Assembly: GCA_900450595.1 (NCBI GenBank)
Contig: UGGS01000002.1
Coordinates: forward strand, 620,001-684,000
Direction of reading: 5' to 3'
DNA: 64,000 nucleotides
Source of the DNA: [Flavobacterium] thermophilum
GTDB taxonomy: Bacteria; Bacillota; Bacilli; Bacillales; Anoxybacillaceae
Shown: positions 12,570 through 29,837 of the stretch, one piece after another
How the letters are laid out: every line of letters starts with the position of its first letter
How positions within the stretch are numbered: position 1 is the stretch's first letter
The notes under the pieces: generated by a model
The model's input: the letters and a program-made list of their open reading frames with translations, nothing else
Databases searched by the model: none
What the model was told of the DNA's origin: nothing
Program-made: the position numbers and the translations under genes

Positions 12570-13433
12570 ATGGTTACAAAGCAACAAGCCACGCTGCCGC
12601 CGCAGCACCAGACGCGCCAGCCCGGCCTGCAAACGGAGATGAACCCGCAGCCGGTCACCATCAAAGACACCTATAAAGGAAGCGGCAAGCTCAAAAACAA
12701 AACCGCCATCATCAGCGGCGGCGACAGCGGCATCGGCCGCGCGGTCGCCGTCCATTTCGCCAAAGAAGGGGCCGATGTGGCGATTCTCTATCTCAACGAA
12801 CATGAAGATGCCGACGAAACGAAACGGCTCGTCGAGCAGGAAGGAAGACGGTGTCTGGCCATTGCGGGAGACATTGGCGATGAAGCGTTTTGCAAAGAGG
12901 CGGTGAAACAGACGATTGAAGCGTTCGGCAAGCTTGACATCGTCGTCAACAACGCCGCCGAGCAGCACCCGCAGCCGAATTTTCTCAACATCACTGCCGC
13001 GCAGCTGGAAAAAACGTTTCGCACGAACGTATTCGGCTGCTTTTTCCTAACGAAAGCGGCGCTCCCGCACTTAAAAAACGGAAGCGCCATTATCAACACC
13101 GCTTCGGTCACCGCCTACGAAGGAAACGAACAGCTCATCGACTACTCGGCGACAAAAGGCGCAATCGTCGCGTTCACCCGCTCGCTCGCCAAAGCGCTCG
13201 TTGGGCAAGGCATCCGCGTCAATGGCGTCGCCCCAGGCCCGATTTGGACGCCGCTTATTCCATCGACATTCACAAGCGACCAAGTCGCCACATTCGGCGC
13301 CAACACGCCGATGAAACGTCCCGGCCAACCGTGCGAAGTCGCTCCAAGCTATGTCTTTTTAGCCAGCGAGGAGGCATCCTATATTACGGGGCAAATGATA
13401 CATGTGAATGGCGGGAAGATTGTGAATGGATAA
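12570..13433 (+). CDS. Short-chain dehydrogenase/reductase, copy 1
   Basis: NAD(P)-dependent oxidoreductase of the YhxC/YdaD general-stress type, 287 residues; substrate unknown. It has the extended N-terminus LPPQHQTRQPGLQTEMNPQP, the cofactor motif SGGDSGIGRAV, the NNAAEQ motif and the catalytic YSATKG (Tyr-x-x-x-Lys). The start at the second ATG is set by AAGGAGG seven bases upstream and matches copy 2. It is near-identical to 31543-32406 over most of its length, but the last 35 or so codons differ and become AT-rich, like the block that follows. It marks the left edge of that block. Confidence 0.9.
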   Translation: MVTKQQATLPPQHQTRQPGLQTEMNPQPVTIKDTYKGSGKLKNKTAIISGGDSGIGRAVAVHFAKEGADVAILYLNEHEDADETKRLVEQEGRRCLAIAGDIGDEAFCKEAVKQTIEAFGKLDIVVNNAAEQHPQPNFLNITAAQLEKTFRTNVFGCFFLTKAALPHLKNGSAIINTASVTAYEGNEQLIDYSATKGAIVAFTRSLAKALVGQGIRVNGVAPGPIWTPLIPSTFTSDQVATFGANTPMKRPGQPCEVAPSYVFLASEEASYITGQMIHVNGGKIVNG

Positions 13434-15213: not shown

Positions 15214-16233
15214 ATGAAAGCTGCTGTAGTGGAACAATTTAAGGAACCATTAAAAATAAAAGAAGTAGAAAAACCAACCATTTCATATGGAGAAGTATTA
15301 GTCCGCATTAAAGCATGCGGTGTTTGTCATACTGACTTGCATGCCGCTCACGGCGATTGGCCGGTAAAACCAAAACTTCCTTTAATCCCTGGCCATGAAG
15401 GAGTAGGAATTGTTGAAGAAGTAGGTCCAGGCGTAACCCATTTAAAAGTGGGCGACCGCGTTGGAATTCCTTGGTTATATTCCGCTTGCGGCCATTGTGA
15501 ATATTGTTTAAGCGGACAAGAGACATTATGTGAGCAACAAAAAAATGCAGGCTACTCAGTCGACGGAGGTTATGCTGAATACTGCAGAGCGGCGGCAGAC
15601 TATGTGGTTAAAATTCCTGACAACTTATCATTTGAAGAAGCTGCCCCAATTTTCTGCGCCGGAGTTACTACCTATAAAGCGTTAAAAGTAACAGGGGCAA
15701 AACCAGGAGAATGGGTAGCAATTTACGGTATCGGCGGCCTTGGACACGTTGCCGTTCAATACGCGAAGGCGATGGGACTTAATGTCGTTGCTGTTGATAT
15801 CGGCGACGAAAAACTTGAACTTGCAAAAGAACTTGGCGCTGATCTTGTTGTAAACCCTTTGAAAGAAGATGCAGCGAAATTTATGAAAGAGAAAGTCGGC
15901 GGAGTTCACGCAGCAGTCGTAACAGCTGTATCTAAGCCAGCGTTTCAATCTGCGTACAATTCTATCCGCAGAGGCGGAGCTTGTGTGCTTGTCGGATTGC
16001 CACCGGAAGAAATGCCTATTCCAATTTTTGATACGGTTTTAAATGGAATCAAAATCATCGGTTCCATTGTCGGCACGCGGAAAGACCTGCAAGAAGCGCT
16101 CCAATTCGCAGCGGAAGGTAAAGTAAAAACCATTATTGAAGTGCAACCTCTTGAAAAAATTAATGAAGTATTTGACAGAATGCTAAAAGGTCAAATTAAC
16201 GGGCGTGTAGTTTTAACGTTAGAAGATAAATAA
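15214..16233 (+). CDS. adhT: Zinc-containing alcohol dehydrogenase, heat-stable ADH-HT type
   Basis: NAD-dependent medium-chain alcohol dehydrogenase, 339 residues, that interconverts primary alcohols and aldehydes. From memory the sequence is almost identical to the characterised G. stearothermophilus ADH-HT. It shows the catalytic zinc site [15 protein letters not shown] (from about residue 37) with GHEGVG, the structural-zinc cysteines in the segment [17 protein letters not shown], and the cofactor motif GIGGLG. A GGGAGG ribosome site precedes the ATG. It is followed by a terminator and lies next to hxlAB, so it may supply or remove aldehydes for the formaldehyde pathway; that role is inferred from position only. 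Confidence 0.95.
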
Positions 16234-16487: not shown

Positions 16488-16541
16488 CACTATGTAAAAA
16501 TAAAGTGCGTACTTCTAAAGATAAATCATACATAGTATACT
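16488..16541 (+). promoter_or_regulatory. HxlR-type operator A and hxlA promoter
   Basis: The 29-base motif at 16488-16516 begins CACT and ends TACTTCT. Its last bases form the -35 hexamer TTCTAA (16513-16518). Seventeen bases later comes the -10 hexamer TATACT (16536-16541). The same motif with the same spacing to a -10 occurs before the polyamine operon and before the iron alcohol dehydrogenase, and a copy overlaps the hxlR promoter. A poor -35 with the operator abutting it suggests activation, as known for HxlR in B. subtilis. Binding by HxlR is inferred. Confidence 0.7.
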
Positions 16542-16607
16542 CATCAGTGTGTAAGAGATAAAAACACAAACAACCAACAATAAACTTTTATGAGAGGTGA
16601 AGAATTC

Positions 16608-17243
16608 ATGGAATTACAATTAGCATTGGATCTCGTAAACATTCCAGAAGCGAAAAAGCTGGTAAAAGAAGTCGAGGAGTATGTTGATATTGTAGAAATC
16701 GGCACTCCAGTTATTATTAATGAAGGGCTCAGGGCCGTAAAGGAAATCAAGCAAGAATTCCCTCATTTAAAAGTATTGGCAGACTTAAAAATCATGGATG
16801 CAGCCGCATATGAAGTCATGAAAGCATCCGAAGCCGGTGCTGACATTATCACTATACTTGGAGTTGCTGAAGATTTGTCCATCAAAGGTGCTGTGGAAGA
16901 AGCTAAAAAACAAGGCAAACAAATCTTGGTGGACATGATCGGAGTGAAGAATTTGGAAGAACGAGCGAAAGAAGTAGATGAGTTTGGAGTCGACTATATT
17001 TGTGTACACACAGGTTATGATCTTCAGGCAGTCGGAAAAAACTCTCTTGAAGACCTTGCAACAATCAAACGTGTCGTGAAAAACGCAAAAACTGCGATCG
17101 CAGGCGGCATCAAATTAAACACATTGCCTGAAGTCATTAAAGCAAAACCTGATCTTATCATTGTAGGTGGCGGCATTACTAATCAAGAAGATAAACGAGC
17201 TGTAGCCGCTGAAATGAAAAAAATGATCCAACAAGGTGAATGA
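16608..17243 (+). CDS. hxlA: 3-hexulose-6-phosphate synthase
   Basis: Condenses formaldehyde with ribulose 5-phosphate to give 3-hexulose 6-phosphate, the fixing step of the RuMP pathway. The 211-residue protein belongs to the OMP-decarboxylase barrel superfamily and has its D-x-K-x-x-D signature at D59, K61 and D64 (ADLKIMD). The ATG at 16608 follows a GAGAGGTGA site. It forms a two-gene operon with hxlB, four bases downstream, ended by a strong terminator. Confidence 0.96.
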   Translation: MELQLALDLVNIPEAKKLVKEVEEYVDIVEIGTPVIINEGLRAVKEIKQEFPHLKVLADLKIMDAAAYEVMKASEAGADIITILGVAEDLSIKGAVEEAKKQGKQILVDMIGVKNLEERAKEVDEFGVDYICVHTGYDLQAVGKNSLEDLATIKRVVKNAKTAIAGGIKLNTLPEVIKAKPDLIIVGGGITNQEDKRAVAAEMKKMIQQGE

Positions 17244-17247
17244 AATT

Positions 17248-17805
17248 ATGCAGACTACGCAATATTTGGGTGAAATCATCAAAGAGTTAAATCGGACAGC
17301 CGATTTCATTGCTGATGAAGAAGCTGAAAAATTGGTAAATGGGATTCTTGAAGCAAAGAAAATTTTCGTAGCTGGCGCAGGCAGATCTGGATTTATGTCC
17401 AAATCTTTTGCGATGCGAATGATGCATATGGGGTTAGACGCCTATGTAGTAGGCGAAACCATAACCCCTAACCTAGAACAAGATGACATTTTGATCATCG
17501 GATCGGGTTCAGGGGAAACGAGAAGTTTAGTTTCCATGGCTGAGAAAGCCAAAAGCTTAGGTGCAACCGTAGCGTTAGTGACCATTTTCCCTGAATCGAC
17601 CATTGGACAATTGGCTGATATCACGGTCAAGTTGCCTGGCTCACCTAAAGACCAATCAGACAATGGATACAAAACCATACAGCCAATGGGATCACTATTT
17701 GAGCAAACCCTCTTGCTGTTTTATGATGCGATCATATTAAGATGCATGGAGAAAAAAGGATTGGACTCCAATACCATGTTTAAAAGACATGCCAATCTTG
17801 AATAG
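17248..17805 (+). CDS. hxlB: 6-phospho-3-hexuloisomerase
   Basis: Isomerises 3-hexulose 6-phosphate to fructose 6-phosphate, completing formaldehyde fixation. The 185-residue SIS-domain protein has GAGRSGFMSKSFAMRMMHMG (from residue 43) and GSGSGETRSL, and ends MFKRHANLE like B. subtilis HxlB. The ATG at 17248 gives the same length as that protein and has AAGGTGA eight bases upstream; a GTG at 17236 is less likely. The product can be turned into glucose 6-phosphate by the pgi gene on the same block. Confidence 0.96.
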   Translation: MQTTQYLGEIIKELNRTADFIADEEAEKLVNGILEAKKIFVAGAGRSGFMSKSFAMRMMHMGLDAYVVGETITPNLEQDDILIIGSGSGETRSLVSMAEKAKSLGATVALVTIFPESTIGQLADITVKLPGSPKDQSDNGYKTIQPMGSLFEQTLLLFYDAIILRCMEKKGLDSNTMFKRHANLE

Positions 17806-17859
17806 AGTATAAGGGACTTTTGCTCAGAGAATCTTAAACCACTCAAAATCTTAAACTAT

Positions 17860-18138
17860 TCAAACGGAATTTTCAACTTGGTCACGGGGGAAAGGAGAAA
17901 AGACCGCAAAGCTTTCTTTAAGAAACGCTTTGCGGTCTTTTTTTGATCGGAAATTTGGATTCTTGTGATCGATCCATGATAGTCCTCCAACAGTTTGAAC
18001 ATTATCATTCTCTTCGTACACATCAGTCGCTCTCCCACTATCAGCATTCCCTCGATTATCATTACAAATCAAATCGGTTATAGTTGGAACGCGGGGTTTG
18101 CCAAGACTTTTTGCAAAATCGATGACCACTCCTTTCAT
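17860..18138 (-). CDS. Unrecognised short open frame (doubtful)
   Basis: An open frame of 92 codons beginning MKGVVIDFAKSLGKPRVPTI and continuing ICNDNRGNADSGRATDVYEE. I do not recognise the family. Its last third runs through the hxlAB terminator hairpin, which argues that either the gene is truncated or the frame is accidental. No good ribosome site stands before the ATG. I list it only so that the 0.5-kb gap before bpsA is described. Confidence 0.2.
   Translation of the reverse strand: MKGVVIDFAKSLGKPRVPTITDLICNDNRGNADSGRATDVYEENDNVQTVGGLSWIDHKNPNFRSKKDRKAFLKESFAVFSPFPRDQVENSV
17898..17944 (+). terminator. Terminator after hxlAB
   Basis: AAAGACCGCAAAGC pairs with GCTTTGCGGTCTTT (17927-17940), followed by TTTT. 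It is strong and ends the hxlAB transcript. Confidence 0.93.
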
Positions 18139-18281
18139 GGTTGCACACGGCGTCAAAAACTCTCAAAAGTCTGTTGCCTTCCATAATCCATCGGTAAAAT
18201 CGTGCGATGGTGGTAAATGTCATTCAGCAAACCTTGAAGAACGCAACTCCGCATGCGGGTGTCAGGAAACGGCATACAAAC

Positions 18282-18323
18282 GCCCGCCCTCGGCAACGGG
18301 TATTCCCGCTGCAGAAGGCGGGC
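18282..18323 (-). terminator. Hairpin after bpsA
   Basis: GCCCGCC (18282-18288) pairs with GGCGGGC (18317-18323), with a small inner CGGG/CCCG hairpin. The GC-rich stem with only a weak T-run after it on the minus strand is a plausible but imperfect terminator for bpsA. Confidence 0.5.
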
Positions 18324-18334
18324 AGTCTTTATCG

Positions 18335-19378
18335 CTATTCTTTGCCGCAGAACTCTTCGTCGTAGTAGAGGTCCTGCCCAAGCTCCACTCGGCCGAAAAA
18401 GAGGGGCTGAGGCTCCTCGACCAGCTCCAGGCGGTAGACGGTGCTGACGTAGAAGGGGATATCGGGCTCCTTGACCGGCACCGGTGCCATGCGTGCCCAG
18501 TCTAGGGCCACAATGTCCTCCAACAGGTAGTCCTGGAAGGCGCCCAGCATGTCAGTGATGGCATAGCCCATGTCGAGAATGCCCTGCTGGATCTGCCGCC
18601 ATTTCCGCCAAGAGGCCTCCAGGTAAGAGAGGCCAAAGTAGCCCGCGGCACCGGGCCCACGCAGCCCCTCTGTGCAGCGGCTTAAAAAAAGCAGGAGGCC
18701 CTTGACGGTGTCGACCGGGTCCGTGAAGAACACATCAAACTGGCCGCGGAGATGGGACGGCAATTCATCCCGCACGTCGTAGACCTCAGCGTGGACGTGG
18801 TCCCAACCACGGTCCCGAGCCACGTCGCGAATGAAGGTGATGATGCGCTCGTCCACATCCAGGACGCAGATGCGCCGCGGCAGCCCCGAGAGCGCGGCCG
18901 CAATGCCCGTGAGGTCGTCGTCTCCCAGCAGCAGAATGTCGCGCCCCACCAGATCTCCCCGCTGGGCCATCAGGGCCAGCCGTCGCACGGTGGTCTCGGG
19001 CGTCACGTATCCCTGGTCAAAGTCGGGCGTCGCCTTGGGCCGCATGGCTGCGATATCTTGGAAAGCAGCAAGGACGCTGTCAAAAGGCGGCCTCAGAACA
19101 ATGCCGCGCCCCGCGCAAGCCTCACAACGCTGTTCGGCCACCCGTTCCAGACTCAGAGTTTCCGCCTGCTGACGCCCCGCCTCGGTGATCACGAAGCGAT
19201 CGCCGTCGTAGACCACCAGTTCGCCCTCCAGGAGCGACTGCAGGGCCTTCAGCACCTGGTGGGTCTGGGCTTGCGCTGCCCGCATCAGCTCCCAGTAAGA
19301 TTTGGGACCGAAGTAGAGTGCACGAAGCAGAAGCGCGTCGATCCGACGGTTTTCCGCAGCAATACCTATTGTCGACAT
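18335..19378 (-). CDS. bpsA: Branched-chain polyamine synthase (N4-bis(aminopropyl)spermidine synthase family)
   Basis: Aminopropyltransferase family (formerly DUF43) that adds two aminopropyl groups to the central nitrogen of spermidine; branched polyamines are typical of thermophiles. The 347-residue protein has an N-terminal winged-helix-like region (about 10-75), a CEAC pair (85-88), DFDQGYVT (119-126), the acidic GDDDLTG loop (152-158) and FTDPVDT (218-224), all family marks. ATG 19378 follows AAAGGAG at good spacing. The gene is strikingly GC-rich beside its AT-rich neighbours, which suggests separate transfer. It lies downstream of speE on the same strand, so SpeE could provide its spermidine. 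Enzyme family confident; exact product inferred. Confidence 0.85.
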   Translation of the reverse strand: MSTIGIAAENRRIDALLLRALYFGPKSYWELMRAAQAQTHQVLKALQSLLEGELVVYDGDRFVITEAGRQQAETLSLERVAEQRCEACAGRGIVLRPPFDSVLAAFQDIAAMRPKATPDFDQGYVTPETTVRRLALMAQRGDLVGRDILLLGDDDLTGIAAALSGLPRRICVLDVDERIITFIRDVARDRGWDHVHAEVYDVRDELPSHLRGQFDVFFTDPVDTVKGLLLFLSRCTEGLRGPGAAGYFGLSYLEASWRKWRQIQQGILDMGYAITDMLGAFQDYLLEDIVALDWARMAPVPVKEPDIPFYVSTVYRLELVEEPQPLFFGRVELGQDLYYDEEFCGKE

Positions 19379-19680
19379 AGGTACCACTCCTTTCGCTCTA
19401 AAAGAGTAAAAGAGTAGAGACGCATTTCGCCACGACTTCCTTAGTTTTCAGCGATCGCCGAGAAAACATACGTGGTGGTTCAAACGTTTTTGGAATGTTT
19501 GTCTGTTGTCTTCTTAGTGTGGGTCTAACAAGCATCCGGCTACATGTCTTCAATGGTTTTTTCTTCGTGACCATCACGATTCCCATTCAGATCATTTTTC
19601 CATAAAACTGCTTGCGACCGCTCTAAGTCGCTGCTAGCATCAATATATACGTTTCCCGAGCATGTCTCATCAAAGCGCAC
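19379..19680. other. Spacer between speE and bpsA
   Basis: About 300 bases with no gene I can support. A 62-codon open frame at 19398-19586 on the minus strand has no recognisable content. The spacer could hold a bpsA promoter, but none stands out. Confidence 0.4.
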
Positions 19681-20526
19681 TTATTTTCTCTCCACAGTGA
19701 TCAACTCTTGCACGAACACAGGCAACTGGAAAAGGGCTTTGTGCATTCTCGGATGATAATAGCGGGTATCAACTTGATGGAACCTCGTCTCATCCACTTC
19801 CATAGGATCATACTTTTTAGAACCAATCGTAAAGCTCCACAACCCGCTTGGATAGGTAGGAATGCTCGCAGTATAAAGGCGCGTAATTGGGAAGAGCGAA
19901 GAGATATCCTTAAATACTCGACGAATCAGATCACGGTTAAACCAAGGAGATTCCGTTTGTGCAACCATGATTCCGTCTTCTTTTAGTGCTTCAAAAATCG
20001 ATTGATAAAACGGCTTTTGGAACAAGCCAACAGCTGGTCCCACAGGCTCGGTGGAATCCACCAAAATCACATCATATTTTCCTTTGTTTTCTTCAACATG
20101 TTTAATTCCGTCAACTACTTCAATTTTGACGCGTGGATCATCTAAAGCACCCGCGATTTTGGGGAAATAAGTTTTGGAAGCTTCGATCACTTTGCCATCA
20201 ATCTCTGCCAAAGTAGCTGTTTTTACCGAAGGATATTTTAAAATCTCACGAATGGCTCCCCCATCTCCACCGCCAACAACAAGCACATGTTCCGGATTAG
20301 GATGGGTATTCATCGCCACATGGGTAATCATTTCATGGTATACAAACTCATCAACATCGGTAGTCATTACCATGCCATCTAAAACAAGCATGTTGCCAAA
20401 TTGGACTGTTTCAATTACATCAAGGGTTTGAAATTCCGTTTTTTCATGGTGTAAAGTACGACGAATCTTGGTTGTGATTCCATGATCGAGAGTTTGTTTT
20501 TCTGTATACCACAGTTCCATCTCCAT
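19681..20526 (-). CDS. speE: Spermidine synthase (polyamine aminopropyltransferase)
   Basis: Transfers the aminopropyl group of decarboxylated SAM to putrescine, giving spermidine. The protein has 281 residues, or 279 if started at the second ATG. It contains ELWYTEKQT, the SAM-binding GGGDGG at 85-90 and the catalytic DSTEPVGPA at 157-165. It follows two GNAT genes at a 194-base gap and precedes bpsA. No speD or ornithine/agmatine gene is in the window, so decarboxylated SAM and putrescine must come from elsewhere. Confidence 0.95.
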
Positions 20527-20720
20527 CCTGTAAAAGTCCTCTCTCCTTTATTCGAATTTTGAAATAAGTTCTAGTTGTAATGTGCTATTAAGATAAAGCA
20601 TCCTTCATCTTTCAGATACCGAATAGCATTCTTGCTGCTTTCGATAGAGAAACAATAAAGGATGCCGCTAAATCCGGAAAAATTTTTTAAGGTTTCATGA
20701 GCATTGCGTTTCTATAGGGT

Positions 20721-21401
20721 TTAAATCGGTAATAGTGTGACGGTATCTTTCGCTTCCAGATTTTCAATCATTTCATACCAAGAATTCGGTTTATTCGATA
20801 AGACAGAATAATAACGTTTCAAAAACTTCACAACAAGATCTGCTGGAAGTTCATTCACGCTATCGTCCATCGGAAGAAAACAAAGATCAAGACCAGTTAC
20901 GGCTTCTCCATCATTGTTCCAAGATGGATGGACATAAGGGAAGTCAAGCCGCTTATATCCCAAATGAGATAATACCTCACGACGAACATATGGATCCATC
21001 GGCTTAATCCCGCCAAATTCATAATGCTCTACCCGATAAGGATCATAAATTTCGGCGAACATGCCATATAACTGCTTTCCATTTGCTGCAGCCCAGTTGT
21101 TCAAATCTTCTAACCGCTTTTTGGCTAAAAATCGACCGATCCCTAGTCCTGCTTGGCCGATAATGGTAAAATCTGTCATTGCGACATTTAAATCTTCATA
21201 ATAGCGATACTCTGTCGCACCTACTACCTCTCCTTCGTGAACAGCAACACACACACGAATTCCCGGATCTTCCAGAGGCTCTTTCCATAAATCGAATGCT
21301 AATACTTCTTCAGGAGGAAATACATTTTGCATCAATTGGTGCATTTTTTTAAACAAAGGGTCTTCAATACTCGTAATTCTGCGATATTCCATCTTCATCA
21401 T
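20721..21401 (-). CDS. GNAT-family N-acetyltransferase (second of a pair)
   Basis: A 226-residue acyl-CoA-dependent acetyltransferase by fold. The acetyl-CoA loop shows as TIIGQAGLGIGRFLAKKRLE. The acceptor is unknown; the neighbours suggest an amine. Three in-frame ATGs lie near the start behind AAGGAGA, so the true start may be three codons later. It begins eight bases after the previous GNAT gene and is clearly co-transcribed with it. Confidence 0.75.
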   Translation of the reverse strand: MMKMEYRRITSIEDPLFKKMHQLMQNVFPPEEVLAFDLWKEPLEDPGIRVCVAVHEGEVVGATEYRYYEDLNVAMTDFTIIGQAGLGIGRFLAKKRLEDLNNWAAANGKQLYGMFAEIYDPYRVEHYEFGGIKPMDPYVRREVLSHLGYKRLDFPYVHPSWNNDGEAVTGLDLCFLPMDDSVNELPADLVVKFLKRYYSVLSNKPNSWYEMIENLEAKDTVTLLPI

Positions 21402-21409
21402 TCTCCTTG

Positions 21410-22084
21410 TTAAGATTTTGGTCTATAAAAAGGATTTTTCCATTCCATCAGTGCTGCATAATTGCACGATTCTTCATCCTCTAAATAGTTCGCCACCACT
21501 TTAACAGGTGTACGGCCGCAACGGAGCAGGAAGGTAATAACAGGGTCCTTCAATTCGCCTTTTACTACAGCTTCGAGATATTGTTCCGCTGTCATCTCAT
21601 GAGCTTTTTTATGATAGCCAGGCATTCTCCCTCCGCCTAACAGCCGTTCTAATCCCAAATGAACAACCACTTCATACATGGATAACATCAGCCATTTTCC
21701 CAGCCCTAATTTGCGGTAGGCAGGACGCACGCCAATATCAACAACATAGAGCGTATTCCCGTTTGGGTTATGGTTACGGATATATCCATTATCCGTGATC
21801 TCTTCCCATGTATGATCCGGATGGCTGGGATCAAAGTCAACAATAAGTCCCGTCATCGACCCCGCAATTTCACCATTCACCTCAACACATAAGGCTCCCT
21901 CTGGAAACAGTGTAACATGATTTTTCAGCTGTTCCGTATTCCACCATAATTCAGACGGGAATGGTGGAGGAAAACTTTCCTGTTGAATGCGGATTAAGCC
22001 AGGGAAGTCCTTTTCTTCATAATTTCGGATTACCGCTGGGACAGGACGATCTTGGTCAAAGACGTAAAACTCCTTTCGATACAT
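21410..22084 (-). CDS. GNAT-family N-acetyltransferase (partner of the nitrilase)
   Basis: A 224-residue GNAT protein with the acetyl-CoA loop VRPAYRKLGLGKWLMLSMYE. Many bacteria encode a single protein with a GNAT domain of this type fused to a carbon-nitrogen hydrolase. Here the two halves are adjacent separate genes 34 bases apart, so they very probably act on the same molecule. The substrate is not known. Its position between the nitrilase and speE points to a polyamine or amide-linked amine. Confidence 0.8.
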   Translation of the reverse strand: MYRKEFYVFDQDRPVPAVIRNYEEKDFPGLIRIQQESFPPPFPSELWWNTEQLKNHVTLFPEGALCVEVNGEIAGSMTGLIVDFDPSHPDHTWEEITDNGYIRNHNPNGNTLYVVDIGVRPAYRKLGLGKWLMLSMYEVVVHLGLERLLGGGRMPGYHKKAHEMTAEQYLEAVVKGELKDPVITFLLRCGRTPVKVVANYLEDEESCNYAALMEWKNPFYRPKS

Positions 22085-22118
22085 TCTTCACCCTCCTCAT
22101 AGAGCAGCTAGTCACATC

Positions 22119-22976
22119 TTATTTCCAGTCCGGATAAAGATCCGTGCGCCGATCACGCCACGTAGTGACGGAACCACTTTCGCGAACCTGATATAACAGC
22201 TCTAAATCGAGATCAGCGGTTACAATCATATCATGGTTGATTTCCCCTTCTACCAAGATGCCGCGTGGAGGAAACGGGATGTCGTTCGGTGTAATCACCG
22301 CCGCTTGCCCAAAATTTGCCCGCATAAAATCAACCGTAGGAAGGGAACCTACCGTACCAGTGGTGACGACATAGACTTGATTTTCGATTGCTCTCGCATG
22401 ACTGGTGTAACGGACACGATGAAATCCGTGACGATCATCGGTGCAAGAAGGACAGAAAATGACATCAGCACCCTTGGCCTTTGCCATTCGAACAATTTCT
22501 GGAAATTCGATGTCATAGCAAGTCAACATCGCAATGGTTCCTTTGTCGGTCTCGAACACCTGCAGGCTTTCTCCAGGAGACATGTTCCATTCTTTTACTT
22601 CCGTCGGAGTGATATGAAGCTTTGGCTGTTCGGCGACTCTTCCGTCTGGATAGAATAAATGAGCCACGTTGTATAATCGTCCGCCTTTACGGATGACATG
22701 GGTTCCTCCAATAATATGCATCTTTGTTTGTTTAGCCAAATTAATAAATAAAGACCGATATTGTTCTGTAAAATCAGGAAGATCTTGAATGGTCAAAGGC
22801 TGCCCTTGCTGGTTGCCAATAGACATTAGCTGGGTGGTAAAAAATTCTGGAAACAAGACAAAATCCGCTCCAAACTCTTCCGCTGTTTTAATATAATGTT
22901 CTACTTGTTTGGCAAATTCCTCAAACGATTGGATGGTATGGAGATGATATTGAACCGCTGAAACCCTCAGTCTCAT
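22119..22976 (-). CDS. Carbon-nitrogen hydrolase (nitrilase/omega-amidase superfamily)
   Basis: Hydrolase of amide or nitrile C-N bonds, 285 residues. The Glu-Lys-Cys triad is intact: E44 in FPEFF, K119 in PKLH and C153 in LTCYDIEFPE. It is the first gene of the run nitrilase-GNAT-GNAT-speE-bpsA. Directly upstream lie operator B and a matching promoter. Candidate substrates include N-carbamoyl- or N-acyl-polyamines, but the sequence does not decide this. Confidence 0.87.
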   Translation of the reverse strand: MRLRVSAVQYHLHTIQSFEEFAKQVEHYIKTAEEFGADFVLFPEFFTTQLMSIGNQQGQPLTIQDLPDFTEQYRSLFINLAKQTKMHIIGGTHVIRKGGRLYNVAHLFYPDGRVAEQPKLHITPTEVKEWNMSPGESLQVFETDKGTIAMLTCYDIEFPEIVRMAKAKGADVIFCPSCTDDRHGFHRVRYTSHARAIENQVYVVTTGTVGSLPTVDFMRANFGQAAVITPNDIPFPPRGILVEGEINHDMIVTADLDLELLYQVRESGSVTTWRDRRTDLYPDWK

Positions 22977-23039
22977 AGTATCCCCCTCTCTTGTTATCCA
23001 TCTAGTAACGTTTCGCCTCAGTCATGTGGCGTTACTGAT

Positions 23040-23093
23040 ATTATTAGACACATCATTCAATTTAACAAGTACACACTTTCTTGTTACATAGTG
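23040..23093 (-). promoter_or_regulatory. HxlR-type operator B and promoter of the nitrilase-GNAT-speE run
   Basis: On the minus strand the 29-base motif (23093 down to 23065) begins CACTATGT and ends TACTTGT. It runs into -35 TTGTTA (23068-23063), and 17 bases later comes -10 AATAAT (23045-23040). The layout is the same as at hxlA and the iron alcohol dehydrogenase. It is about 65 bases before the nitrilase start. Confidence 0.65.
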
Positions 23094-23219
23094 TGAAAAA
23101 GTATACTAAAAGAGGATAAACGAAAAAGGAGAATAAAAAAAGAAGTCTGCAGAAACGATGAGGGATCTAATGATGGAGATAATGTTTTGTGAGCTGCAAC
23201 CACTCTTAACCTACTGCCG

Positions 23220-23275
23220 CTTCTATGGGAATCCCCCGCACATTAGAAGCAGGAGTCTTCTCTCCTTAACTTATG
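23220..23275. repeat. Possible relic of an IS605/IS1341-type end
   Basis: GCTTCTA and TAGAAGC form a hairpin, followed by CAGGAGTCTTCTCTCCTTAA. This resembles GTGGGAGTCTTCTCGCCTAA at the end of the tnpB element (11930-11949). It is short and degenerate. The rest of 23100-23360 shows nothing else I can support. Confidence 0.35.
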
Positions 23276-23362
23276 TAAATGAATCCCCTACTGACGAAAT
23301 TTCAGGAGAGTTTCTGTCAGACCGGTCTCACATCCAAACAGTCATCAACGTACATACAGAAA

Positions 23363-23409
23363 AACCAACGGACAGCGGATCTTTCATAAAAGATTGTTGT
23401 CCGTTGGTT
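23363..23409 (-). terminator. Terminator after hxlR
   Basis: AACCAACGGACA (23363-23374) pairs with TGTCCGTTGGTT (23398-23409) around an inner stem. On the minus strand the hairpin is followed by TTTTT. It lies about 100 bases after the hxlR stop. Confidence 0.8.
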
Positions 23410-23510
23410 TTAACTTGCATCTTAATGAGCGTATATTTTCTATAAAATTTTTCCTGCCAGTAATAAGGCAAGCAGGGAGTTTGCGAAGCTTTAACGGAGG
23501 AAGAGCTTTT

Positions 23511-23876
23511 CTATTTGGCGGCCTCATTGATTTTTACTTGACCTTTTACGACCGTCTCCATATAGTTTTTGCCCCATTCATACATGGCATCAAGAATTGG
23601 CATCAGGCTTTTTCCATGCTCGGTCAGTGAATATTCCACTTTTGGCGGAACAACAGGATAGACTTCGCGATGAACAATTTGATCTTGCTCCAGCTCTCGC
23701 AACTGGTTAACCAGCATTCTTTGGGTGATCCCCGGCATGAGAGCTTTTAGTTCGCTAAACCGCTTCTTTCCCCCTTTTCCTAGATGCCATAAAATAAGCA
23801 TTTTCCATTTACCGCCAATAACAGCGAGCGTTAATTCTTTTTCACAGTTATACGTTTTGCCACAAACGTGTCCCAT
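23511..23876 (-). CDS. hxlR: HxlR-family transcriptional regulator
   Basis: Winged-helix regulator; in B. subtilis HxlR activates hxlAB in response to formaldehyde. The 121-residue protein starts [20 protein letters not shown], with two N-terminal cysteines (C5, C11), one of which is the probable aldehyde-sensing residue of this family. It continues with [20 protein letters not shown] and [17 protein letters not shown] (recognition helix). A GGGGGGTGAAACG leader precedes the ATG. It is separated from hxlAB by the polyamine operon, and a copy of the 29-base operator overlaps its own promoter. Confidence 0.92.
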
Positions 23877-23899
23877 CGTTTCACCCCCCTATGTTGTTT

Positions 23900-23954
23900 A
23901 TTATAACCTATAGTATACTCTTTGTCACTTTATGATAATAAAGCACCTACTCAC
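23900..23954 (-). promoter_or_regulatory. hxlR promoter with HxlR-type operator C
   Basis: On the minus strand, -35 GTGACA (23928-23923), 17 bases, -10 TATAAT (23905-23900). The 29-base motif (23926-23954, reading on the plus strand, starting CACTTTAT and ending TACTCAC) overlaps this -35. It is oriented opposite to the gene, unlike sites A, B and D. No good plus-strand promoter follows, so autoregulation is the likely role. Confidence 0.6.
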
Positions 23955-24140
23955 AAATAAATGTTATACATATTTATTCTCACACATAGCAGACCCCATT
24001 CATTCCTTCTGGATGGTAACAGTCTTTTCATGATACATCCCGTTCATTGTATCTATCCTGAAAACACCATTTAAGACAAAAAAACGGGACCCACCTAGCC
24101 TTCGGAATCGAATTCCAAAGGAAGGTATTTCAGTATATAT

Positions 24141-24180
24141 ATGGTTAATAAGTGCTATGCATGGTTAATAAGTGCTATGC
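24141..24180. repeat. Perfect 20-bp tandem repeat at the IS110 transposase stop
   Basis: The 20-base unit beginning ATGGTTAATA occurs twice head-to-tail (24141-24160 and 24161-24180). The transposase stop codon (24175-24177) lies in the second unit. It is inside the element's 3' non-coding region. Confidence 0.9.
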
Positions 24181-25395
24181 ACTCGTTTTTTCCAGTTTCA
24201 CTTCGTACCCTAACCCCTCTAATCGTTTCACCGTTTGACGCACGATGCTCGCTTCTCGCTGCCGATCCCAGTAGTCGGCTCCCAACTCTCTATACGGTTC
24301 CTTTCGAGTTAAGATGTAATAGATCATTTCTAAAATCGTTCTCCCGACCGCGACACTCGCTCGATTCGCTCCTCTTCGTTTGGCGATCCGATGATACTTG
24401 GCCGATAGGTACGTGTTCTTCGTTCGGGCGGCGGCACGGGCGCATTCCACGAGGCACGACCTTAGCTTCTTGTTCCCTTTCCTCGTTCGACCTGACAACC
24501 GTTTCCCTGCACTCTCATGATTCCCGGGAGCCATTCCGGCCCATGAGGCCAAGTGCGCGGCGGTAGGGAACCGGCTCATGTCCGTCCCGATTTCCGCTAC
24601 AATTTGTTCCGCGCTTTGCCGCCTCACTCCCGGGATCGTATCGATGAGCTCCAGCGCTTCATGAAAAGGGCGCGTTCGTTCCTCGATTTCTCGATCCAAC
24701 CGGGCAATCGCTTCATCTAAATACTCCACATGACGCCATTGCTCAGCCAGCATCATGCGTTGATGCGGCCCTATCATTCCTTTCAACGCGCGCCGGAGCT
24801 CTTCCGTTTTTTGTTTCAGCCGCCCTTTGGCGAGCTGGGCGAGGGCCGCCGGATCGTTCTTTCCTTCGATAAGGGCGCGAATGATGAGCCGGGCCGACAT
24901 CCCGTTGATGTCGGATACGACCGAAGAAAGCTTGATATTGGCTCCTTCCAGCACTTTTTGGATGCGGTTGAGCTCCCGTGCCCGTTCCTCGATCAAACTG
25001 CGCCGATAACGGACCAGTTCCCGGAGCTCCCGCTGAGCCCGATGAGGGATGTAACTCCCTTTTAGCAATCCATGGCGAAGCAAGTCCGCGATCCATTCAG
25101 CATCTTTGACATCGGTCTTTCGCCCGGGAACCGCTTTGATGTGTTGGGCATTGACGACAAGCACTTCGATCGGCTCTGCTTCGAGGAGATTATACACTGG
25201 CTTCCAATATACGCCCGTCGACTCCATGGCAACGTGCGTCACCTTTTTTTCTTTCAGCCAATCCACCAACTCCTCGAGATCGTCGGTCAGCGTACCAAAC
25301 GTGCGAATCTCTTTTCCTTCAGGGGTAAGGGCGCAAGCCGTAATCGATTGCTTATGCACGTCCAATCCACAACAGCGTTCATACAAGACGCGCAT
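24175..25395 (-). CDS. IS110-family transposase (DEDD recombinase)
   Basis: RNA-guided recombinase, 406 residues. The RuvC-like N-terminus has D12 (GLDVHKQ), E58 (AMESTGVYW), D95 and D98 (TDVKDAEW), the DEDD tetrad. The C-terminal domain contains TIPGVRRQSAEQIVAEIGTD and NHESAGKRLSGRTRKGNKKL, which carries the conserved serine region. I start at ATG 25395 (MRVLYERCCGLDVHKQ) behind GGGAGG. The longer open frame to 25545 would run through the bridge-RNA region. The gene appears intact. Confidence 0.93.
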   Translation of the reverse strand: MRVLYERCCGLDVHKQSITACALTPEGKEIRTFGTLTDDLEELVDWLKEKKVTHVAMESTGVYWKPVYNLLEAEPIEVLVVNAQHIKAVPGRKTDVKDAEWIADLLRHGLLKGSYIPHRAQRELRELVRYRRSLIEERARELNRIQKVLEGANIKLSSVVSDINGMSARLIIRALIEGKNDPAALAQLAKGRLKQKTEELRRALKGMIGPHQRMMLAEQWRHVEYLDEAIARLDREIEERTRPFHEALELIDTIPGVRRQSAEQIVAEIGTDMSRFPTAAHLASWAGMAPGNHESAGKRLSGRTRKGNKKLRSCLVECARAAARTKNTYLSAKYHRIAKRRGANRASVAVGRTILEMIYYILTRKEPYRELGADYWDRQREASIVRQTVKRLEGLGYEVKLEKTSA

Positions 25396-25428
25396 CGGTC
25401 TCCCTCCCTGCTTCGTTCTCAAAAACAG

Positions 25429-25570
25429 CTGGTGCAGCAGCCTTTGTTCAAGCATTCTATCCTGCGTGCTTCCCTCAAGGGAGCGACATTCCGTAGTGCA
25501 CCAGACTACTGGGGTCCGTCTATATATCGGACTTTTACGTACCATAGATACAACGACCTCATGACCCCAG
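25429..25570 (-). ncRNA. IS110 bridge RNA (target and donor loops)
   Basis: Upstream of the transposase two adjacent stem-loops form on the minus strand. The target loop (25570 to 25509) is closed by CTGGGGTC/GACCCCAG, the donor loop (25504 to 25429) by CTGGTGCA/TGCACCAG. The target loop contains TTGTATCTAT, identical to the left flank plus core at 24047-24056. It also contains TATATAGAC, the reverse complement of GTCTATATA at the right junction. The donor loop contains CAGGATAG, the reverse complement of core plus element end CTATCCTG (24053-24060). Order and pairing agree with the published IS110 bridge-RNA model. The left donor guide was not clearly identified. Confidence 0.8.
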
Positions 25571-25706
25571 CTGCAAGGAGACCATTCGACAGAAGGTTGT
25601 TTTCATCCTTCCGATGGTGACGAAATTTTTTTGTCATGGGAGTCTATATACCTTTATACCTTTTATATCATTAAGTATATTTTTTTACACTATATTATAT
25701 TTTTAT

Positions 25707-25760
25707 CACTACATGATAATAAAGTGCGTACTTCTCAATAAGTTTTATACACATTATACT
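25707..25760 (+). promoter_or_regulatory. HxlR-type operator D and promoter of the iron alcohol dehydrogenase
   Basis: The 29-base motif at 25707-25735 begins CACTACAT and ends TACTTCT. It runs into -35 TTCTCA (25732-25737), and 17 bases later comes -10 TATACT (25755-25760). The last 17 bases of the motif are identical to site A before hxlA. Confidence 0.7.
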
Positions 25761-25798: not shown

Positions 25799-26965
25799 AT
25801 GAATCGTTTTACTATTCCTCGCGATATTTATTTTGGAGAGAATGCTCTCGATGTTTTAAAAACACTGGAAGGAACAAAAGCTGCCCTCGTCATTGGCGGC
25901 AGCTCCGTCAAGAAAAACGGAAATCTTGATAAAATTCAGCAACTTCTTTCAGAGGCCAATATAGAAACAAAAGTGATTGATGGAATTACGACAGAACCAA
26001 CAACCCAAATGGTAAAAAAAGGAGTGCGCATTCTTAATGATTTTCAGCCAGACTGGGTGATCGGGATTGGCGGCGGATCAGTCATGGATGCGGCGAAAGC
26101 AATGTGGTTGTTCTACGAACATCCAGAATTGACATTTGAAGAGGCCACTCGTCCATTTAGCCTGCCACGCTTGCGCACAAAAGCAAAATTCGTGGGAATC
26201 CCGACAACAAGCGGAAGTGCATCGGAAATATCCAATTTATCGGTTATTACTGATGCAGAAACAGGGGTCAAATATCCACTGGCTGATTTTGAACTGACGC
26301 CAGACATGGCGATTATTGATCCGATTATGGTCCAATCCATGCCGAAGCACGTTACAGCCTACAGCGGGATGGACGCAATCACACATAGTATTGAAGCATA
26401 CGTAGCAAAGCCTCGTACGATTTTCACAGATTCCTTGGCTATTGAAGCAGCTCAAGTACTGAAAGAAAATCTTCTTGCTTCTTACCACGGAGATGCTAAA
26501 GCCCGCGAACAAGTTCATTACGCTCAGGCGATGGCTGGAATGGCATTTGCTAACGCGGTGCTAGGAAATGTGCACAGTCTTTCACACAAAAGCGGCCCAA
26601 TATTTAACATTCCGCATGGATGTGCCAATGCGATTTATTTGCCATATGTGATCCAATTTAATCGCACGGTAGTCGAGGATCGTTATGCAGCAATTGCCAA
26701 ACGGCTCGGTCTGAATGGGGAAAACAACAAAGAATTGGTGGATTCACTCATTGCTTGGATTCGTGACTTGAATAATAAGATGAATATTCCAAATACACTT
26801 CAAGAATACGGAGTGTCCGAAGAAACGTTCACCGCACACGTGGATGAAATGGCGGCCAATGCCGTAAAAGATCCTTGTACAAGCACAAATCCGCGTGAAA
26901 CTTCTGTAGAAGAAATGAAAAAATTATATATCGCAGCGTTTTATGGTCTAGATGTCAACTTCTAA
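25799..26965 (+). CDS. Iron-containing alcohol dehydrogenase, candidate methanol/formaldehyde oxidoreductase
   Basis: Group III NAD(P)-dependent alcohol dehydrogenase, 388 residues. The cofactor motif GIGGGSVMDAAK lies at 89-100. The metal ligands align as D192, H196, H259 and H273 (YSGMDAITHSIEAY and VHSLSHKSGPIFNIPHG). Ribosome site GGAGGG precedes the ATG. It shares its operator and promoter layout with hxlA, so it probably acts on formaldehyde or on an alcohol that yields it. Its sequence (for example AMWLFYEHPE) is closer to butanol/AdhE-type enzymes than to classical Bacillus methanol dehydrogenase, so methanol as substrate is only a suggestion. Confidence 0.88.
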   Translation: MNRFTIPRDIYFGENALDVLKTLEGTKAALVIGGSSVKKNGNLDKIQQLLSEANIETKVIDGITTEPTTQMVKKGVRILNDFQPDWVIGIGGGSVMDAAKAMWLFYEHPELTFEEATRPFSLPRLRTKAKFVGIPTTSGSASEISNLSVITDAETGVKYPLADFELTPDMAIIDPIMVQSMPKHVTAYSGMDAITHSIEAYVAKPRTIFTDSLAIEAAQVLKENLLASYHGDAKAREQVHYAQAMAGMAFANAVLGNVHSLSHKSGPIFNIPHGCANAIYLPYVIQFNRTVVEDRYAAIAKRLGLNGENNKELVDSLIAWIRDLNNKMNIPNTLQEYGVSEETFTAHVDEMAANAVKDPCTSTNPRETSVEEMKKLYIAAFYGLDVNF

Positions 26966-27049: not shown

Positions 27050-27297
27050 CCACCGTTTGCTTTTATATATTACCATAGATGCCTTAAAAAAAGTACTAGG
27101 TTATTTTAATCATTGCCTTTTAGCGGATGTATTTTGTTTAAACGTTCATGAACGACAAATACATGAACAAGATTTTCTCCCTGAAATGGGCATTATTCAT
27201 AAAAATACCGATTCGAGCAATGTAGTAAACGTCGTTATATCTGCTCTATCACTTTATTCTTTTGGGAAAATGTTTCGAAAAGTCAGGGGGGATCACA

Positions 27298-28755
27298 TTG
27301 GATTCAATGACCTTTATCTTGTTTGGAGCAACAGGTGATTTAGCGAAACGAAAAATTTTCCCTGCATTATATAATTTATTTCTCGATCAAAAAATGCCGC
27401 AGCCATTTTCCATTATTGGCGTAAGCAAAAGAGAATTATCCGATGATGAATTTCAAATATATGTGGAAAATTCGATCAAAACCTTTTCCAGACGTTTGAC
27501 AAATGACCGTTCCAAAATGAAAGAGTTTCTCCGTGCGTTTCGTTATACCTCTTTAGATGTAACGAATGCACAAGGGTATAAAAAGTTGCTTGAAATGGTT
27601 CAACAACGTGAAAAAGAATTGAACATTCCTGAAAACCGTATGTTTTATTTATCGGTTGCGCCGGAATTTTTTGATGTGATCGCGTCGAACATCAAGGAAA
27701 GCGGGTTAGGATCCACAAAAGGTTGGAAACGTCTGATTATCGAAAAACCGTTTGGCCACGATATAAAATCGGCCCAAGATTTAAACGAAAAGTTAAGTCA
27801 AGCTTTTGAAGAAGAAGAAATTTATCGGGTAGATCATTACCTTGGAAAGCCGATGGTGCAAAACCTTGAAGCTTTAAAATTTGCCAATCCTGTGTTTCAA
27901 GCGATATGGAACAATCAATATATAGCCAATGTGCAAATTACGGCAAGTGAGACGGTTGGAGTAGAACAAAGAGCAAGCTATTATGATCAGGCAGGAGCCA
28001 TTCGCGATATGTTTCAAAATCATATGCTGCAATTGTTGATGATGACAGCCATGCACCTGCCAAAACAGATTAGCGCAAAAGACATCCGTAATGAGAAAAG
28101 AAAAATCATGGAATCTCTTCGACCAATACAGAAGGAAGAAGTAGGCTTGCACGTTGTTCGCGGCCAATACGGTCCTGGAGAAATCGATGGCAGACCAGTG
28201 GTTGGATATAAAGAAGAACCTGGCATCGATGCTTCTTCGACAACGGAGACATTTGTTGCTGCTCGTTTGTGGATTGATGATGAAAATTGGAGCGGGGTAC
28301 CATTCTATATTCGTACAGGTAAAAGAATGAAGGAAAAGTCCACACGTATTGTGATTGAATTTAAAAATCCATTAAAGGAATGGTACTTACCGAAAAATGA
28401 GGAAACAACTCCTAATCTTTTGGTGATTCAAATCAATCCGAACGAAGGTGTTTCGTTGCAATTCAATAGTAAAAATATATTCAACAATGGAAAGATGGAA
28501 CCCGTTCATATGCACTTTACAACTAATCAGAAAGAGGTACCCGAAGCCTATGAACTCTTAATTTTTGACGCTTTACATGGCGATTCGACTTTCTTTGCTC
28601 ATTGGAAAGAAGTTGAACTATCTTGGAAATGGCTGCAACCTGTTTTAGAGGCATTTGAGGAAAATCTCCTTCCTCTTCATTCATATCGTTCAGGTTCGAT
28701 GGGACCAGAAGCTTCTTATCAATTATTGAAAGAAGACGGATTTTATTGGCGGTAA
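27298..28755 (+). CDS. zwf: Glucose-6-phosphate 1-dehydrogenase
   Basis: Oxidises glucose 6-phosphate with NAD(P)+, the first oxidative step of the dissimilatory RuMP cycle. The 485-residue protein has the cofactor motif FGATGDLAKRK at about 9-19 and the active-site sequence RVDHYLGKPMVQ near 176-187. I start at TTG 27298, six bases after GGGGGG; an ATG three codons later (27307) is the alternative. It is followed in order by gnd and pgi. Confidence 0.95.
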   Translation: MDSMTFILFGATGDLAKRKIFPALYNLFLDQKMPQPFSIIGVSKRELSDDEFQIYVENSIKTFSRRLTNDRSKMKEFLRAFRYTSLDVTNAQGYKKLLEMVQQREKELNIPENRMFYLSVAPEFFDVIASNIKESGLGSTKGWKRLIIEKPFGHDIKSAQDLNEKLSQAFEEEEIYRVDHYLGKPMVQNLEALKFANPVFQAIWNNQYIANVQITASETVGVEQRASYYDQAGAIRDMFQNHMLQLLMMTAMHLPKQISAKDIRNEKRKIMESLRPIQKEEVGLHVVRGQYGPGEIDGRPVVGYKEEPGIDASSTTETFVAARLWIDDENWSGVPFYIRTGKRMKEKSTRIVIEFKNPLKEWYLPKNEETTPNLLVIQINPNEGVSLQFNSKNIFNNGKMEPVHMHFTTNQKEVPEAYELLIFDALHGDSTFFAHWKEVELSWKWLQPVLEAFEENLLPLHSYRSGSMGPEASYQLLKEDGFYWR

Positions 28756-28862: not shown

Positions 28863-29765
28863 ATGAGAGTCGGGTTAATCGGTTTAGGAAAAATGGGATT
28901 AAACTTAGGTAAAAACCTCATTGACCATAAGCACGAAGTAGTGGCGTTCGATGTAAATGCAAATGCGGTTGAAGAAATAAAAAAATACGGGGCCAAAGGC
29001 GTATCCAGTTTAAAGGAGCTCGTTTTATCATTAGAAAACCCAAGAATTCTTTGGGTGATGGTTCCACATACAGTTGTTGATTCAGTGATTAGTGAGATTA
29101 CACCATTTTTAAGCAAAGGAGACATTGTGATTGATGGAGGTAATTCTAACTATAAGGAATCGATTCGTCGTTATAACGAGCTAAAGGAGATGGGAATTCA
29201 CTTTATGGATGCTGGAACCTCTGGTGGGGTGGAAGGTGCTCGCAACGGGGCGTGTTACATGGTTGGAGGCGATTCTGAAGCTTGGAACATTGTCGAGCCT
29301 CTTTTCCGAGATACCGCTGTCAAAAATGGGTATTTATATACAGGAAAAGCAGGTAGCGGACATTTCTTAAAAATGGTCCACAATGGGATTGAATATGGAA
29401 TGATGGCTGCCATTGGCGAAGGATTCGAAATATTAGAGAAAAGCGAATTCGATTATGACTATGAAAAAGTAGCAAGAGTGTGGAATAATGGTTCGGTTAT
29501 TCGTTCATGGCTCATGGAATTAACCGAACGCGCATTTTCAAAAGATGCAAAATTAGAGGAAATCAAAGGAATTATGCATTCTTCCGGCGAAGGGAAATGG
29601 ACGGTCGAAACGGCTTTAGATCTGCAAACGGCCACTCCTGTCATCGCCATGGCCTTATTGATGCGGTATCGTTCATTAGAAAACGATACATTTACAGGCA
29701 AAGTGGTAGCCGCCCTCCGCAACGAATTTGGCGGACATGCTGTAGAAAAAAATGAGAAGAAATAA
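28863..29765 (+). CDS. gnd: 6-phosphogluconate dehydrogenase, decarboxylating, short (YqeC/GndA-like) type
   Basis: Oxidatively decarboxylates 6-phosphogluconate to ribulose 5-phosphate and CO2, regenerating the formaldehyde acceptor of HxlA. At 300 residues it is the short class, not the 470-residue GntZ type. Seen are GLIGLGKMG, DGGNSNYKES, the substrate loop GTSGGVEGARNG and the catalytic KMVHNGIEYGMM. Ribosome site AGGAGG. It sits between zwf and pgi in one run. Confidence 0.93.
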   Translation: MRVGLIGLGKMGLNLGKNLIDHKHEVVAFDVNANAVEEIKKYGAKGVSSLKELVLSLENPRILWVMVPHTVVDSVISEITPFLSKGDIVIDGGNSNYKESIRRYNELKEMGIHFMDAGTSGGVEGARNGACYMVGGDSEAWNIVEPLFRDTAVKNGYLYTGKAGSGHFLKMVHNGIEYGMMAAIGEGFEILEKSEFDYDYEKVARVWNNGSVIRSWLMELTERAFSKDAKLEEIKGIMHSSGEGKWTVETALDLQTATPVIAMALLMRYRSLENDTFTGKVVAALRNEFGGHAVEKNEKK

Positions 29766-29837
29766 CATAAAATCCCCTTGCAGTAAGACATACAATGGAC
29801 ATGCGCTGCAAAATAGAATGAGAAAGGAGAAGTGTAT

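Follow-up and report, generated by a model that had tools for sequence, protein, structure and literature searches.

Four copies of a 29-bp box as candidate operators of an HxlR regulon in [Flavobacterium] thermophilum

In a 64,000-nucleotide stretch of the 3.73-Mb genome of [Flavobacterium] thermophilum (contig UGGS01000002.1, positions 620,001 to 684,000; hereafter the window), we observed four copies of a 29-bp site, or box, around the gene for the formaldehyde regulator HxlR. Judged from sequence, the box is very probably the HxlR operator, from which activated HxlR would switch on the genes behind three of the four copies. The strict motif, CACT-N4-RAHAAKAAAG-YRYS-TACT, makes up a core of 26 letters, and exact matches to this core were found at 16488–16513, 23926–23951 and 25707–25732 on the plus strand and at 23068–23093 on the minus strand, whereas 100 dinucleotide-shuffled versions of the window gave an expectation of 0.00. 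Site A (16488–16516, plus strand; 42.1 bits) lies before hxlAB, site B (23065–23093, minus strand; 39.2 bits) before nit-GNAT1-GNAT2, site C (23926–23954, plus strand; 33.1 bits) next to hxlR and site D (25707–25735, plus strand; 40.7 bits) before feADH-zwf-gnd-pgi. An earlier note on this DNA, made by a model from its letters, had proposed that these four sites fit the motif, and all four do so exactly.

At sites A, B and D the box runs into a -35 hexamer that is followed after 17 bases by a -10, the promoters reading TTCTAA-17-TATACT, TTGTTA-17-AATAAT and TTCTCA-17-TATACT, respectively, and each -10 occupies positions +23 to +28 counted after the core. This constant geometry, as well as the claim that site C overlaps the -35 of hxlR, held when the sequence was reread. 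The hxlR promoter (GTGACA-17-TATAAT; 23900–23928, minus strand) matches 11 of the 12 consensus bases and is the best promoter match between 16200 and 29900; site C covers its -35 and is oriented away from hxlR. The earlier note had placed an iron alcohol dehydrogenase gene behind site D, which is correct for feADH and incomplete, since D also leads zwf-gnd-pgi. No terminator match was found in the window sequence between feADH and zwf, and site D is taken to head all four genes.

The whole genome was scanned with a relaxed form of the motif (CACTNNNNNANAAKAAAGNNNNTACT). With at most one mismatch, eight places were found, four in the window and four at 1,095,098–1,099,751 of contig 1, so that all eight fall inside two HxlR islands; an abundance of the motif elsewhere in the genome, which would have spoken against the candidate regulon, was not seen. 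At two mismatches, five further places lay outside the islands, compared with six for the reversed pattern at up to two mismatches; being no commoner than the latter, these places were regarded as background and rejected as targets. The second island, on contig 1, is partly decayed: nit, speE and most of feADH are missing, as are parts of bpsA and pgi. Its HxlR protein is nonetheless identical, and each of the four places still carries a box. When the two islands were compared, the box and the -10 were kept at A, B and C despite drift of the sequence further upstream. At D the 150 bases adjoining feADH are nearly identical in both islands, and this site is therefore less informative.

The box follows HxlR through the family. 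In 41 family genomes, the motif with at most one mismatch gave 75 matches, against 11 for the reversed pattern, and it was present in 19 of the 20 genomes with an HxlR orthologue (at least 86% identity) versus 2 of the 21 without one. Of the latter two, one (G022) retains a box in front of GNAT1-GNAT2 and the other (G034) shows two matches that are dissimilar; in G011, the sole orthologue-bearing genome without a motif match, a weight matrix still gives a site before nit (L082). Gene maps of nine family genera showed A before hxlA, B before nit (or, if nit has been lost, before GNAT1), C adjacent to hxlR and D before feADH (or, if feADH has been lost, before zwf), and the box was likewise found in loci outside the family. 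There, the weight matrix, trained on 32 family sites, scored 96 places at 12 bits or more in 72 loci, compared with 0 for the reversed matrix; at 6 bits the numbers were 110 and 5, respectively. A box of at least 12 bits leads hxlA in 45 of these loci, zwf in 18 and nit in 7. Altogether, the collection comprised 171 distinct sites scoring 9 bits or more (one of the relative searches retained the top 80 of at least 550 relatives): 73 lie before hxlA, 28 before zwf, 20 before nit, 9 before feADH and 2 before GNAT1, 25 lead frames that do not resemble the reference genes and 11 lead no frame. Among the genes behind these last sites, glpX, fba, gap and one oxidoreductase were named by reading, of which only those at locus L117 were checked by family models.

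The link between box and HxlR was examined in 397 genomes of the order, with HxlR called at 1e-45. HxlR was present in 131 genomes and the motif in 157; 112 had both, 19 HxlR only, 45 the motif only and 221 neither. The motif was thus found in 112 of 131 genomes with HxlR versus 45 of 266 without it (odds ratio of 29, p of 4e-41, relatedness being ignored). Neither the reversed pattern nor one with a spacer longer by one base gave any match in these 397 genomes.

Promoter geometry is conserved as well. The -10 lies at +23 to +28 after the core in 63 hxlA, 19 nit and 27 zwf sites, with its final T in 98%, 100% and 96% of them, respectively; sites below 15 bits or with short context are omitted from these counts (10 of 73 hxlA, 1 of 20 nit, 1 of 28 zwf and 1 of 9 feADH sites). 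The -10 of the feADH class is less uniform because this class, like part of the zwf class, mixes D-type sites with C-type sites located further upstream. Just upstream of the core, TATA and then a run of T were seen in the hxlA, nit and zwf classes, more weakly for zwf. The core itself may be read as an inverted repeat, CACTWTRT-N3-AYAWAGTG, followed by GCGTACTT. Four genomes of the Bacillus subtilis group, placed there on the basis of an HxlR 90–96% identical to the solved protein, carry an hxlA promoter with a degenerate core (AACTA..., AAAGTGCSTACTT) and TAGAAT at the same +23 to +28.

The HxlR-hxlAB pair of B. subtilis was reportedly studied by Yurimoto in 2005. The window HxlR (23511–23876, minus strand) is an HxlR-type winged-helix protein (PF01638, 139 bits) whose best match in the Protein Data Bank (PDB) is HxlR itself (7bzd/7bzg; E of 2.3e-57 for 7bzd). 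Its residues 10–13 are N-C-E-K (NCEKEL), at the same place as in B. subtilis HxlR, so that Cys11 and Lys13 are kept, and among the HxlR sequences of the analysed loci with 70% identity or more, 114 of 115 distinct ones have both residues. In B. subtilis, where HxlR is the experimentally known activator of hxlAB, formaldehyde forms a Cys11-CH2-Lys13 bridge and DNA affinity rises, and a protein without Lys13 gives a higher basal level (PMC7835342). The system described here shares with that of B. subtilis an orthologous sensor and the hxlAB target, to which hxlR is linked with a conserved site before hxlA; it differs in that feADH-zwf-gnd-pgi and nit-GNAT1-GNAT2 stand behind a box as well and hxlR itself carries one, whereas in B. 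subtilis hxlAB is the described target.

Given the exact sites, their tracking of the HxlR orthologue, the matrix with its reversed control and the fixed -10, we consider an HxlR regulon well supported. The candidate regulon put forward in the earlier note thus gains from the genome scan, from the relatives and from the kept Cys11 and Lys13. By analogy with these residues in B. subtilis, formaldehyde would bridge Cys11 and Lys13 of the window HxlR and raise its affinity for DNA. An activated HxlR dimer would then bind a box abutting a poor -35 and recruit RNA polymerase, as suggested by activation of B. subtilis hxlAB, and would turn on hxlAB from A, feADH-zwf-gnd-pgi from D and nit-GNAT1-GNAT2, possibly with speE and bpsA, from B. 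Since site C lies on the hxlR -35, occupied HxlR should limit its own synthesis.

Several observations weigh against this interpretation. Roughly 10 of the 75 matches in the family resemble background, a number comparable to the 11 of the reversed pattern. The 72 outside loci were chosen for their HxlR gene and thus test the box rather than its link to HxlR, a link that is tested by the scan of the order; some of their boxes could belong to paralogues. In the order, 45 genomes have the motif without HxlR at 1e-45 and 19 show the reverse. Two of the four cores in the B. subtilis group score below 5 bits, and the others 18.7 and 6.8 bits. A boxless copy of nit, 77% identical, is present in the same genome, and nit was found in 149 of 199 genomes; it is therefore not a formaldehyde gene everywhere, and its occurrence also rules it out as an obligatory partner of HxlR. 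Finally, DUF24 paralogues 49–63% identical to HxlR adjoin boxes of 9 to 22 bits in other genomes, for example with SDR or flavodoxin genes. The box is therefore partly a family code, and paralogues may cross-read it where they occur.

These paralogue boxes suggest that another DUF24 regulator, responding to quinones or other electrophiles, might be the main reader of the box and HxlR act on it only by cross-talk. YodB, CatR and HypR belong to the same MarR/DUF24 family as HxlR but respond to quinones, diamide or hypochlorite (PMC6943732). We regard such a main reader as very unlikely here, because no HxlR-type protein other than the two identical HxlR copies reaches 1e-30 in the genome of the window, the box tracks HxlR in both family and order and sits on formaldehyde genes, and boxes with HxlR score 35–42 bits, with paralogue boxes lower. 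HxlR might instead repress at B or D and be released by formaldehyde, given that its DUF24 relatives are repressors (PMC4776306) and that site C covers a -35. The boxes at A, B and D, however, end at a weak -35 in the geometry of the HxlR-activated hxlA promoter of the B. subtilis type, and formaldehyde raises the affinity of B. subtilis HxlR (PMC7835342), which makes repression highly improbable. That the sites merely share a functionless ancestry in recently duplicated or transferred promoters has a negligible probability: the island is low in GC, duplicated in this genome and reported as transferred in Anoxybacillus (PMC3948429), and its two copies hardly differ over the 150 bases at D, but outside the family the box precedes non-homologous genes with differing further promoter sequence, and in both islands box and -10 persist at A, B and C despite upstream drift.

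Returning to activation by HxlR, we considered the functions of the genes behind the boxes. By the established logic of the pathway, hxlAB, pgi, zwf and gnd constitute a closed dissimilatory ribulose monophosphate (RuMP) cycle that would convert formaldehyde to CO2, and all five genes are present and linked in the window. Behind A lie hxlA, for 3-hexulose-6-phosphate synthase (16590–17243, plus strand; TIGR03128, 300.9 bits, cutoff 200), and hxlB, for 6-phospho-3-hexuloisomerase (17248–17805, plus strand; TIGR03127, 267.5 bits, cutoff 160). Behind D, all on the plus strand, lie feADH, for an iron-containing alcohol dehydrogenase (25799–26965; PF00465, PF25137); zwf, for glucose-6-phosphate dehydrogenase (27304–28755; PF02781 and PF00479, scored on the longer frame 27262–28755); gnd, for 6-phosphogluconate dehydrogenase (28863–29765); and pgi, for glucose-6-phosphate isomerase (29832–31175), the last two being each 84% identical to the corresponding annotated gene of a Priestia flexa plasmid. 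The operon of site D and hxlAB would thus form a complete formaldehyde-oxidising cycle with D heading its oxidative branch: formaldehyde would be added to ribulose 5-phosphate, pass on into glucose 6-phosphate and leave as CO2, with return of ribulose 5-phosphate. The 388-residue feADH product gave 18 NCBIfam matches, none of which reached its cutoff. Its assignment as an Mdh-type methanol dehydrogenase was rejected, since its best solved relatives are the alcohol dehydrogenase domains of AdhE, with Mdh lower, and it is 34% identical to Mdh of the B. methanolicus plasmid pBM19.

The run behind B, on the minus strand, begins with nit, for a carbon-nitrogen hydrolase (22119–22976; PF00795, 107.5 bits), followed by GNAT1, for an acetyltransferase (21410–22084; PF00583, 41.7 bits), and a gene that we named GNAT2 (20721–21401), which gave no match in Pfam, NCBIfam or PDB and follows GNAT1 in most loci holding both. 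Further on, after 194 and 293 bases, respectively, come speE, for spermidine synthase (19681–20526; NF002010, 387 bits, cutoff 260) and one of three speE-like genes in the genome, and bpsA, for branched-chain polyamine synthase (18335–19387; PF01861, 255 bits). Both may be transcribed from B, bpsA perhaps as the last gene behind it; neither was found in the 72 loci outside the family. The GC content of bpsA is 62.7%, as if it were of separate origin. Identification of nit as N-carbamoylputrescine amidase was rejected, its TIGR03381 score of 63.6 bits being far under the cutoff of 410. Many of the nit matches listed from the 199 genomes belong to a class of 46–50% identity in open frames of about 500–560 codons, which resemble YhcX. 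A protein search with nit gave 2368 matches, the best 120 of which carry unspecific names. Removal of formaldehyde-damaged amine or amide metabolites would be the likeliest role of the nit-GNAT branch, but this is a guess, and one that we consider doubtful. A polyamine-based formaldehyde sink found no support as an established pathway in the open literature, searched by title and start of abstract (the first 30 of 139 papers listed), and likewise remains a guess; nitrilase, GNAT, formaldehyde and Bacillus never occurred there together in one paper.

Boxes were also found with related gene sets in other genera. The hxlAB and oxidative-branch set with boxes is present on plasmids of Cytobacillus, Priestia flexa and Peribacillus (with no pgi in view in the last), and a Halobacillus plasmid carries hxlR, a box and feADH. 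A box precedes glpX at L112, L117, L129, L134 and L166, and fba at L116. Within 20 kb of L117, from Neobacillus rhizophilus, are genes for a monomeric sarcosine-oxidase-type protein, pfk, tkt, fba, glpX, gap, zwf and rpe, a transaldolase-like gene that falls below model cutoffs, two copies of hxlR, nit, GNAT1 and boxes; hxlAB was not found in this 20-kb stretch. The sarcosine-oxidase-type gene together with the RuMP genes would fit formaldehyde arising from demethylation. A stretch of Anoxybacillus SK3-4 with genes partly the same as here, GNAT-nitrilase-HxlR-zwf-gnd, is reported as transferred DNA, with no regulatory motif in the section concerned (PMC3948429).

Plasmid pBM19 carries boxes before rpe (24.8 bits) and before glpX (28.9 bits), glpX being followed by fba, tkt and pfkA. 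Both have a -10 at the usual place and exceed the best score of 60 simulated plasmids (15.2). B. methanolicus PB1 (G086) has the same rpe and glpX boxes, a third before hps-phi and, weaker, a fourth before a zwf start that was read by eye. Five pBM19 RuMP genes, hps and phi are reported as methanol-induced (PMC3905653; PMC4342826), and most of the boxed B. methanolicus genes are among these. HxlR is said to control hps and phi in MGA3 (PMC8879981, which relays a source that we have not seen). Against a simple account, the methanol dehydrogenase gene mdh of pBM19 is likewise induced but has no box, its best score being -11.0 bits. Unlike the window, B. methanolicus has its boxes on an assimilatory set, and its HxlR is a tandem without Cys11. 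The sole HxlR-type protein found in PB1 at 1e-30 is a 226-residue tandem of two HxlR domains (L279:8426–9106), and MGA3 has one (P0005) that is 94% identical to it; in these tandems of 223–226 residues, Cys11 is replaced by R or H in the first domain and by Y in the second. Among 17 tandem-type sequences that were read, from a search in which 7999 candidates were scored, one named B. toyonensis (P0008) has the Cys in both halves and one named B. fengqiuensis (P0009) in the first.

Across Bacillales, the same box would link hxlAB, the oxidative branch and nit-GNAT, joined on pBM19 and in some genera by the regenerative RuMP genes. We propose tentatively, as a view somewhat more likely to fail than to hold, that one HxlR-box formaldehyde regulon extends over most RuMP genes of Bacillales, among them the methanol-induced B. 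methanolicus plasmid genes, that the tandem HxlR without its sensing cysteine is a switch whose wiring changed as formaldehyde became a food instead of a poison, and that nit-GNAT is a new branch of formaldehyde defence. In the open literature, searched as above, we found no HxlR operator beyond hxlAB and no link of HxlR to zwf, nit-GNAT or pBM19 promoters, which is no proof given that most subscription papers lie outside it. According to PMC8119897, neither fbaC nor the plasmid fba-tkt operon has a described transcriptional regulator, and HxlR would be a candidate answer to this question. HxlR is one of the few proteins known to sense formaldehyde directly, and the results provide it with a probable operator sequence, a promoter geometry and a list of targets that can be tested; they also mark the conserved nitrilase-GNAT module as a candidate formaldehyde function. 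For thermophiles and for the engineering of methanol use, they would furnish modular promoters that respond to formaldehyde.

The island in the window comprises a zinc alcohol dehydrogenase gene, hxlAB, bpsA, speE, GNAT2, GNAT1, nit, hxlR, an IS110 copy, feADH, zwf, gnd and pgi. Its genes have a GC content of 38–45%, with the exception of bpsA and of the IS110 copy (54.3%), and the flanks one of 51–52%. It is bracketed by two SDR genes of the same orientation (12570–13427 and 31543–32406) whose products are 95% identical. The zinc alcohol dehydrogenase gene (15214–16233), directly upstream of site A, has a product differing from 1rjw at 2 of 339 places, and matrix scoring revealed no box of its own. 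The IS110-family insertion (PF01548, PF02371) lies between C and D at about 24057–25642 on the minus strand, with its transposase at 24175–25545; these bounds were obtained by comparison with L092, which has no insertion. In G023, site C is cut after CACTTTATGATAATAAAGC (L077:12186), presumably by an insertion, with D intact. In G038, of the same family, feADH and its D box lie between inverted copies of a gene for a 406-residue transposase (L096:2531–6508 and L097). This unit is present on the chromosome and again on contig C3, and resembles a composite transposon in which gene and box would travel as one.

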